A stretch of 64,000 nucleotides of DNA from Candidatus Stahliibacteriota bacterium (lineage in GTDB: Bacteria; Hydrothermota; Tepidihabitantia; B3-TA06): contig SOJW01000010.1 in the NCBI GenBank assembly GCA_004375895.1, positions 1-64,000 on the forward strand, in the 5' to 3' direction. This document shows positions 19,490-21,617 of this stretch, in pieces. How positions within the stretch are numbered: position 1 is the stretch's first letter; each line of letters starts with the position of its first letter. Under the pieces are notes generated by a model. It saw nothing but the letters and a program-made list of their open reading frames with translations, was not told the origin of the DNA and searched no databases. Both the position numbers and the translations under genes were made by a program.

Positions 19490-19690
19490 TTATACTGTTG
19501 GTTGCGCATCAAGGGTCTCAGTCAATCCGAAACCCTTCCCAAAGGATAGAACCTCATACTTCTCCGTAGCTAACCCTACTCATAGCTCCCAGGCAGCTTT
19601 CTGACTAAGACGTGCCCATAGTGATATAGCCGGCTGGATTGCTTGGGCTGCGTCGCTTGTCGGTATCCTTATAGGCGTAGAGAGTCTTCG
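19490..19690 (-). other. Possible degenerate coding remnant
   Basis: The 19441-19860 gap has no intact gene. On the minus strand one frame reads plausibly as protein (AAQAIQPAISLWARLSQKAAWEL, one TGA, then VGLATEKYEVLSFGKGFGLTE) to a TAA at 19490. It may be an eroded gene piece. Composition is the only support. Confidence 0.2.
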
Positions 19691-19860
19691 TCAGGAGAAG
19701 GACAAGAGCCTTATTTAGCCAATAACCGCCTCAGCTTCCTATACCTTAGGGGTATCTTACACCTTAGTATAGGACACCTGTCTTTGATCAACAAAGTAGC
19801 TTCCGTTGAAAGACAAACAAGGTTTTAGCAGGTTTGATTTAGAGGTCCTATCCTCGGAAC

Positions 19861-19899
19861 AAAAAAGATCCCGGTCTGAGACAATCTCAGACCGGGATC
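19861..19899 (-). terminator. Strong intrinsic terminator of the small RNA
   Basis: Perfect 14-bp stem (GATCCCGGTCTGAG and its complement) with a 5-base loop, followed on the minus strand by TTTTTT. On the plus strand no T run follows, which fixes the direction. Confidence 0.85.
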
Positions 19900-20056
19900 A
19901 GAGGAGGCATTTAATGCGTTATACCTGTTGCGCGTAAATCCTACATTATCTGAACCAGCTTCCTTCAGAGGAGGTAATGTCCTTACAGATCGTGGCTCAG
20001 TACCTCGCTTTCTCTGCCGAGGCTTGCAAGTCCAGGAGCCAATGATCAAAAAGTCT
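19861..20056 (-). ncRNA. Candidate ~196-nt small RNA with two CCUCCUCUGA motifs
   Basis: A free-standing minus-strand transcript with perfect promoter hexamers (TTGACA 20090-20085, TATAAT 20068-20063) and a very strong terminator (14-bp stem, six U). No long ORF. Stem 1: GGCUC (20040-20036) pairs with GAGCC (19998-19994) and encloses CCUCG/CGAGG. Stem 2: ACAUUA (19980-19975) and UCUGAA (19969-19964) pair with UUCAGA (19954-19949) and UAAUGU (19948-19943), leaving exactly CCUCC bulged at 19974-19970. A second CCUCCUCUGA lies single-stranded just before the terminator (19907-19898). CCUCC is complementary to Shine-Dalgarno sequences, so translational control or ribosome interaction is possible. 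I do not recognise it as 6S, tmRNA, SRP or RNase P RNA. Confidence 0.65.
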
Positions 20057-20062
20057 ATTATA

Positions 20063-20090
20063 ATTATAGGAATTTTTTGGCCCATGTCAA
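20063..20090 (-). promoter_or_regulatory. Consensus promoter of the small RNA
   Basis: TTGACA at 20090-20085, 16-bp spacer and TATAAT at 20068-20063. Both hexamers are perfect. A second TATAAT at 20062-20057 follows directly. Confidence 0.8.
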
Positions 20091-20282
20091 GGTATTTTTG
20101 GGAACCCCTCCATCCTCATCGCAGCCCCAGAGGCTGACCCATGCCGAGTCAAGTTCACCGCCGTACTTGAGATCTGAAGGGGCAAACGGTTTATCTTGGG
20201 GGATCTTTCCCTGAGGAGAGGTTTGGGGTCTTGGATGCCAAGCATCCTGCGGGGTAGATTTTTGATGAGGCAATGCTGCATC

Positions 20283-20310
20283 TTGACATCAGCAGAATTC
20301 TGGCTAAAGT
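20283..20310 (+). promoter_or_regulatory. NHL-protein operon promoter, leaderless layout
   Basis: TTGACA at 20283-20288, 16-bp spacer, TAAAGT at 20305-20310, 8 bases to ATG 20319. The start should fall within 1-2 bases of the ATG. TATAGG further downstream is a poorer -10 candidate. Confidence 0.6.
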
Positions 20311-20318
20311 TATAGGGG

Positions 20319-21617
20319 ATGAGAGGTTTAATCTTTATCTTAAGTGCGCTTGTATCAGCAAGCAACTATCATCCTTCAACCCTGTTGGTGCCGCCCTACC
20401 GTCATACCCTGGGATATAACCGTGCAAACCGCTTCTATCTCTCGCTGTATCTGGGGGGAAGCTTCCATTTCCAGGATCCTCAAGGGCTTGCGGGCATAAA
20501 ACTTCGTATGTATGACGATACCATAACCAAACGCGACGATGACGAGTTGACGCTCTTTGCCGTGCACTCCGGGGCCGGAGAGATAATCTATAACGTGGAG
20601 TTCAAGCGCCTGGAGCGTTACGGGGAGAAAGGCTCAGGGATGGGTCAGTTCAACCAGCCCATGGGGATAGCGGCAACCAGTGATGGAGACGTTTATGTGG
20701 CGGACGCAGGCAATAACCGGGTGGTTCATCTTCGCTACGCAGAGGACGGCAGCATCGCCTGGCTGCAAACGATTGGCTCAGGCTACAACCATCCGACCGA
20801 CGTTGCGGTAGACTCCAAGGGAGCAATATACGTGGCGGATGAGGGCAACAATCGTGTGGTTGTATTCAATCCCGATGGAAGTGTGCGCTCGGTATGGAAG
20901 CGAGATCTCTTCAAACCTCGTGCTTTGGCGGTGATTGATCGTGACGCACCAGCCAACGACAACAAGGACAACTTCGTAGTAGTGATCGACAGCCGCCAGA
21001 AGCGCATCTCAATGTTCGACCCCTACGGAGATCTGAAGGTAAGGGTTACACACAAGGAAATGGGATATGAGGACGTACGTTTTGCCTACGTGGCGATTGA
21101 CCGTTCAGGAAGCATCTACGTCACGGATATGCACAACCACCAGATTCACAAGTTCGACAGGCACCTTCACTACATTATCAGTATAGGACGAGAAGGAAGC
21201 GATGACTACGAGTTCTACTCCCCGCGTGGAATCGTTATCAACCCGCCGACAGGCCAGGTATTTATCGCCGAGGCAGAAGGAGGTCAGTACTACTGGATCG
21301 GGGCCGACGGTTTCATCGCGGGATGCTACCCGAACCCATTTGATGCAAATCAGGGAACAACCATCTCGATCTATCTCACCGAAACCGCCACCATCGCGGT
21401 TGAGATATACGACGAGGACGGCTTCCTTGTTCGCAAGCTTAGCCCACGCCATAAATACCCCATCGGAGAGGCTCTGATTGTATGGGACGGACGAGACGAA
21501 CGAGGAGAACGGGTGAAAGCCGGTAGATACACGGTAAAGGCCGAGCTCAAACCCGCAAACATATCAAAACGCTACTTCAAAAAAGAGCTCCAAACAACGG
21601 TGAGATGCACAGAATAG
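20319..21617 (+). CDS. Secreted NHL-repeat protein with FlgD-like C-terminal domain
   Basis: 432 residues: signal peptide (MRGLIFILSALVSAS), then NHL repeats forming a beta-propeller (about 95-330; typical units GQFNQPMGIAATSDGDVYVADAGNNRVV and HPTDVAVDSKGAIYVADEGNNRVVVF), and a FlgD-type Ig-like domain (about 345-425; IAVEIYDEDGFLVRKL...WDGRDERGERVKAGRYTV). The last domain is common at the ends of exported proteins in related uncultured bacteria. It is first in an operon with the barrel protein, whose start overlaps it by 13 bases. Probably extracellular or periplasmic; ligand unknown. Confidence 0.87.
   Translation: MRGLIFILSALVSASNYHPSTLLVPPYRHTLGYNRANRFYLSLYLGGSFHFQDPQGLAGIKLRMYDDTITKRDDDELTLFAVHSGAGEIIYNVEFKRLERYGEKGSGMGQFNQPMGIAATSDGDVYVADAGNNRVVHLRYAEDGSIAWLQTIGSGYNHPTDVAVDSKGAIYVADEGNNRVVVFNPDGSVRSVWKRDLFKPRALAVIDRDAPANDNKDNFVVVIDSRQKRISMFDPYGDLKVRVTHKEMGYEDVRFAYVAIDRSGSIYVTDMHNHQIHKFDRHLHYIISIGREGSDDYEFYSPRGIVINPPTGQVFIAEAEGGQYYWIGADGFIAGCYPNPFDANQGTTISIYLTETATIAVEIYDEDGFLVRKLSPRHKYPIGEALIVWDGRDERGERVKAGRYTVKAELKPANISKRYFKKELQTTVRCTE

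Follow-up and report, generated by a model that had tools for sequence, protein, structure and literature searches.

A predicted small RNA gene with a conserved anti-Shine-Dalgarno element in a Candidatus Stahliibacteriota genome

The 64,000-nt stretch of DNA analysed here (the window), from a Candidatus Stahliibacteriota bacterium (genome G000), carries on its minus strand a compact transcription unit that has the form of a stand-alone small RNA (sRNA) gene. Its sigma-70-type promoter (20063..20090) consists of TTGACA at 20090-20085, a 16-nt spacer and TATAAT at 20068-20063; the hexamers match at 12/12 positions, no other 12/12 promoter occurs within the 10 kb scanned, and the same perfect hexamers and 16-nt spacer are found in three relatives (G001, G006 and G007). 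A second TATAAT follows directly on the first (20062-20057), and the RNA would be expected to start at ~20056 and to run for ~196 nt to the U-tract (19861..20056). At its end lies an intrinsic terminator (19861..19899) with a 15-bp stem at 19899-19867, a 3-nt loop and U6; among the four copies compared, four of its pairs have changed at both bases with pairing retained. A preliminary description of this DNA had proposed such a complete unit, with perfect hexamers and U6, and the sequence bears it out in all but the length of the terminator stem, which had been put at 14 bp. The whole RNA is predicted to fold at -66.9 kcal/mol, as against -52.2 +/- 4.25 for shuffled sequences (z -3.45), a difference contributed mostly by the terminator. 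The unit had also been described as free of open reading frames; an 86-aa frame (19825-20085) does in fact span it, but this frame takes its ATG from within the -35 region and runs through the terminator, and it is not a credible gene. As expected of a stand-alone sRNA, the unit holds no credible or conserved ORF. No Rfam family, including the 6S RNA (RF00013) that had been named as a possible refutation, matched the window locus or its homologous loci at the gathering score, and matches on the locus to SAM-II, malK-II and Polynucleobacter-1 at relaxed Rfam thresholds were at chance level only. The locus is very probably a genuine sRNA gene, one without an earlier record.

Homologues, proposed in the same description as a check, were sought at the DNA level in 100 related genomes and by running a covariance model built on the 3′ part against 293 genomes, and promoter-bearing copies were found in G001, G006 and G007. 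The DNA search returned one full-length match, in the same-genus species G001 (95% identical, predicted RNA 196 nt), together with matches to the terminator end in G004, G006 and G007; the covariance model gave convincing scores in four copies only, those of G000, G001, G006 and G007. The last two share the arrangement CCTTGACATG, a 16-nt spacer, CCTATAAT, a short RNA (141 nt in G006, 106 nt in G007) with a stem-loop, GCCUCCUC, a G.UCCCGG terminator and U6, and promoter spacing, GCCUCCUC and the start of the terminator are common to the promoter-bearing copies of the two genera. Among the 293 genomes, copies with both promoter and motif are limited to the bacterium's own family, where they occur in four species of two genera. 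Two further species, G003 and G004, retain decayed remains of it at the corresponding position, namely the terminator and a small hairpin, the promoter and the CCUCC being gone; G002 and G005 have other sequence there and no copy. One pair of the small hairpin of G003 and G004 differs, C-G versus U-A. Those weak DNA matches in other genomes that were inspected (L006, L007, L012, L014 and L025) lack the promoter-motif-terminator arrangement, and in a database pattern scan for GCCUCCUC plus a terminator no homologue was recognised among the 80 of 103 matches listed, those in Pseudomonas being the complement of a gene start. In the RNA genes of G006 and G007 (L018 and L030) the start site is spanned by a short inverted repeat, TTCCTATAATTTTAATAGGAA / TCCTATAATTTCAGTAGGA, formed by the -10 region; it may be an operator, and the RNA would begin with AGGA, complementary to its own UCCU. 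Three Proteobacteria bins (L134, L140 and L165, the first and last without an Rfam match) hold a conserved sequence with a GCCTCCTCCTTCCGGCC-type terminator, which may represent either an anti-SD-like RNA not related to the one described here or antisense sequence to a gene start.

Within the predicted RNA the 10-mer CCTCCTCTGA is present twice, at 19974-19965 and 19907-19898, as had been noted before; when the transcript is dinucleotide-shuffled, 1.2% of the shuffles contain a repeated 10-mer and 1.3% contain two CCTCC. Motif 1 (CCUCCUCUGA, 19965..19974) sits in the second predicted stem-loop (19943..19980), where in the minimum-energy fold of the G000 RNA its CCUCC forms, exactly as first described, a 5-nt bulge. 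The sister species G001 has CCUGCUCUGA here, with CCUGC for CCUCC, so that the hairpin is broken and the G001 RNA refolds. Across the motif-1 domain and the 5′ stem-loop (19988..20047), the latter lost in G001 and not alignable with G006 and G007, 4 of 6 changed pairs are broken in G001, on which ground conserved 5′ hairpins were rejected; the bulged hairpin, whose lack of conservation had been named in advance as contrary evidence, falls with them as a structural argument.

Motif 2 (GCCUCCUC, 19901..19908), directly upstream of the terminator, is the conserved anti-Shine-Dalgarno (anti-SD) element and the likely seed of the RNA. It is identical at 8/8 positions in all four promoter-bearing copies, whereas the bases upstream of it agree at 15/33 (45%) between the genera; the chance of 8/8 at that background is about 0.45^8 = 0.002, in a comparison of modest size that comprises four sequences from two genera, two of them nearly identical. 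The motif is absent from both promoter-less copies (G003 and G004). Identity between G000 and G001 in the 3′ half was rejected as a sign of selection, since the flank downstream matches equally well; the evidence therefore lies in the two-genus comparison and in the disappearance of promoter and motif together. The preliminary description had placed the second CCUCC unpaired before the terminator: its position is right, and its predicted freedom is partial in G000, where single bases are unpaired with probabilities of about 0.05-0.75, and mostly complete in G001 (about 0.8-0.97 per base, the first base excepted). It is also partly paired in the predicted folds of G006 and G007.

In G003, G004, G006 and G007 the locus adjoins one divergent lipoprotein gene, and the neighbour of the window sRNA is an NHL-repeat gene. 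The lipoprotein gene of G000 and G001 adjoins tuf; in G003 and G004, tuf adjoins the NHL-repeat gene. The lipoprotein-tuf region of G000 (G000:C34, L209) matches the NHL-tuf region of G003 and G004 at 96%, and behind the sRNA a small membrane-protein gene remnant (19607..19714, plus strand) matches the intact gene behind the G003 locus (L207) at 80% over 112 bases (E 5e-24). The two intergenic regions have thus been exchanged by rearrangement, and the window sRNA is the positional orthologue of the lipoprotein-linked copy. Homology between G000 and G001 ends just upstream of the -35 box. The exchange among the lipoprotein, tuf and NHL-repeat regions (window 20095-20320, G000:C34 (L209), L085, L086, L206 and L207) took place within one genus, with breakpoints in intergenic DNA.

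The 16S rRNA tails of G001, G004, G005, G006 and G007 read GGAUCACCUCCUUU and contain CACCUCCUUU; the 16S copy of G000 is truncated before its 3′ end. The anti-SD core of GCCUCCUC is shared with these tails. When pairing with a AAAGGAGGUAU site is computed, the sRNA reaches -13.7, compared with -13.0 for the tail of 16S rRNA. Many window genes are preceded by SD-like sites that CCUCC could pair with, as had been suggested: 40/54 long window ORFs have an SD-like match of 4-6 nt, their starts having been picked partly for SD fit. Beyond CCUCC, no significant likeness to the 16S 3′ end was seen in those promoter-bearing copies that were compared (p 0.18-0.20), which leaves the ribosome-mimicking RNA that had been imagined without support. 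A global translation regulator is unlikely as well, the gene being confined to a few species of a single family, decayed in some others and missing from most relatives.

GCCUCCUC is computed to pair with an SD about as strongly as the 16S tail does. The simplest mechanism would be that it occupies ribosome binding sites in trans, an action reported for anti-SD sRNAs (PMC3927594; PMC7143759). We consider a trans-acting sRNA that blocks ribosome binding sites with GCCUCCUC the best explanation of the locus, and a reasonably probable one. The gene would stand alone, with its own strong promoter and its own terminator, and its working part would be the 3′ end, in which a variable stem-loop region is followed by GCCUCCUC and then by the terminator hairpin. 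There, GCCUCCUC would pair with GGAGG-type ribosome binding sites and keep the 30S subunit off selected mRNAs, the choice of target being made through extra pairing of the bases that flank it. We infer that the RNA is transcribed, that the motif is freely accessible in the cell and that translation of its targets is repressed.

A serious alternative, although an unlikely one, is that the sRNA is real and its CCUCC incidental, the conserved block amounting to a terminator plus leader and another part of the RNA, or protein binding, doing the work. The terminator is indeed the strongest conserved element, three of the four folds leave the motif partly paired, and CCTCC also precedes 5 of the 43 other strong terminator-like sites of a 464-kb sample, where some such sites are probably intragenic; yet GCCUCCUC is kept at 8/8 against the 45% of its neighbouring bases, and the 5′ part is wholly unconserved, leaving no other candidate working part visible. 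It is rather improbable that the locus is decaying or non-functional and transcribed at most as noise. Such decay would agree with a patchy distribution (lost in G003 and G004, absent from G002 and G005), with the place of the window copy at a rearrangement breakpoint, with the end of G000-G001 homology just upstream of the -35 box, and with the lack of a significant target, but a consensus promoter, its 16-nt spacing, the motif and the terminator have been kept across two genera between which the rest is unalignable. We give very little credence to a plus-strand feature, in which GAGGAGG would serve a small ORF as its ribosome site (AGAGGAGG-CATTTA-ATG; 7 codons, MRYTCCA) and CCUCC would be only the complement: SD, spacing and ATG from 19899 are present in G000 and G001, and a coincidence of this kind explains the Pseudomonas database matches, but G006 and G007 have no suitable start codon after GAGGAGG, the promoter scan shows no plus-strand promoter upstream, and the orientation of U-tract and promoter fits the minus strand only. 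Least credible of all is a role in cis, as leader or attenuator for a gene farther along. A terminated leader would likewise consist of a promoter and terminator without an ORF, but the TPR protein gene (19394), next on the minus strand, begins ~470 nt away and has a promoter-like site to itself (19440-19413), the gene behind the terminator differs among species and is convergent in G003, and none of the genes downstream on this strand would suit a leader.

If the RNA is the trans-acting regulator that we favour, which mRNAs might it address? In a ranking over 464 kb and 436 genes, a sample in which the C3 stretch was included because it held the match, the best target (-36.2 kcal/mol, rank 1 of 436 genes) is the gene of a 699-aa surface-type protein on the minus strand of contig C3 (L261, G000:C3:22001-42000), an energy equalled by the best match of 12 of 60 flank-shuffled seeds and thus not beyond the shuffled controls. 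Its start region, AATCAAAGGAGGCGTGTAATGCGTAAGACC (L261; L237 in G001), is complementary to the sRNA at about 24/29 bases including SD and AUG, the predicted pairing extends over SD, AUG and codons 2-3, and the leader sequence is AAUCAAAGGAGGCGUGUAAUGCGUAAGACC. The conserved 5′UTR of this gene was set aside as evidence, the region upstream being about equally conserved and so uninformative. We take the gene as no more than a lead. No Hfq was found in the G000 genome, which is roughly 90% complete. A new, fast-turning-over family of anti-SD sRNAs that work without Hfq, perhaps aimed at the C3 surface or secreted protein (L261), is a speculative reading that we hold to be doubtful.

The locus adds an sRNA family without an Rfam entry for an uncultured lineage, of a functional kind already known. 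Having been lost, decayed or relocated among members of a single genus, it offers a small-scale natural experiment on which of its parts is important. Anti-SD trans-acting sRNAs are a functional class, not a homology family, and the window sRNA, which has no Rfam match, differs from each of the systems compared here. RsaE-type sRNAs of Staphylococcus, another phylum, carry a C-rich, single-stranded UCCC seed in loops, aimed at the SD site. AbcR1 and AbcR2 (alpha-r15) are about 110 nt long, with unpaired, CU-rich anti-SD motifs that putatively pair with ribosome binding sites (PMC7143759); they have another sequence and fold and occur in tandem copies. The Cuckoo RNA / alpha-r14 (NfeR1, SmelA075) and RSs0680a of Alphaproteobacteria are trans-encoded and said to block the ribosome binding sites of several mRNAs (PMC3927594; PMC10746234; PMC7143759). 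The window sRNA would resemble them as a trans-encoded sRNA with anti-SD motifs (single-stranded in Cuckoo) and poorly conserved stems. Cuckoo and alpha-r14 have two to four similar hairpins with CCUCCUCCC in each loop, whereas the window sRNA has CCUCCUC only, in one unconserved bulge copy and in the one conserved GCCUCCUC of its pre-terminator linker. An anti-SD seed appears to have been kept here while nearly all else in the RNA has changed, as in the alphaproteobacterial cuckoo RNAs.
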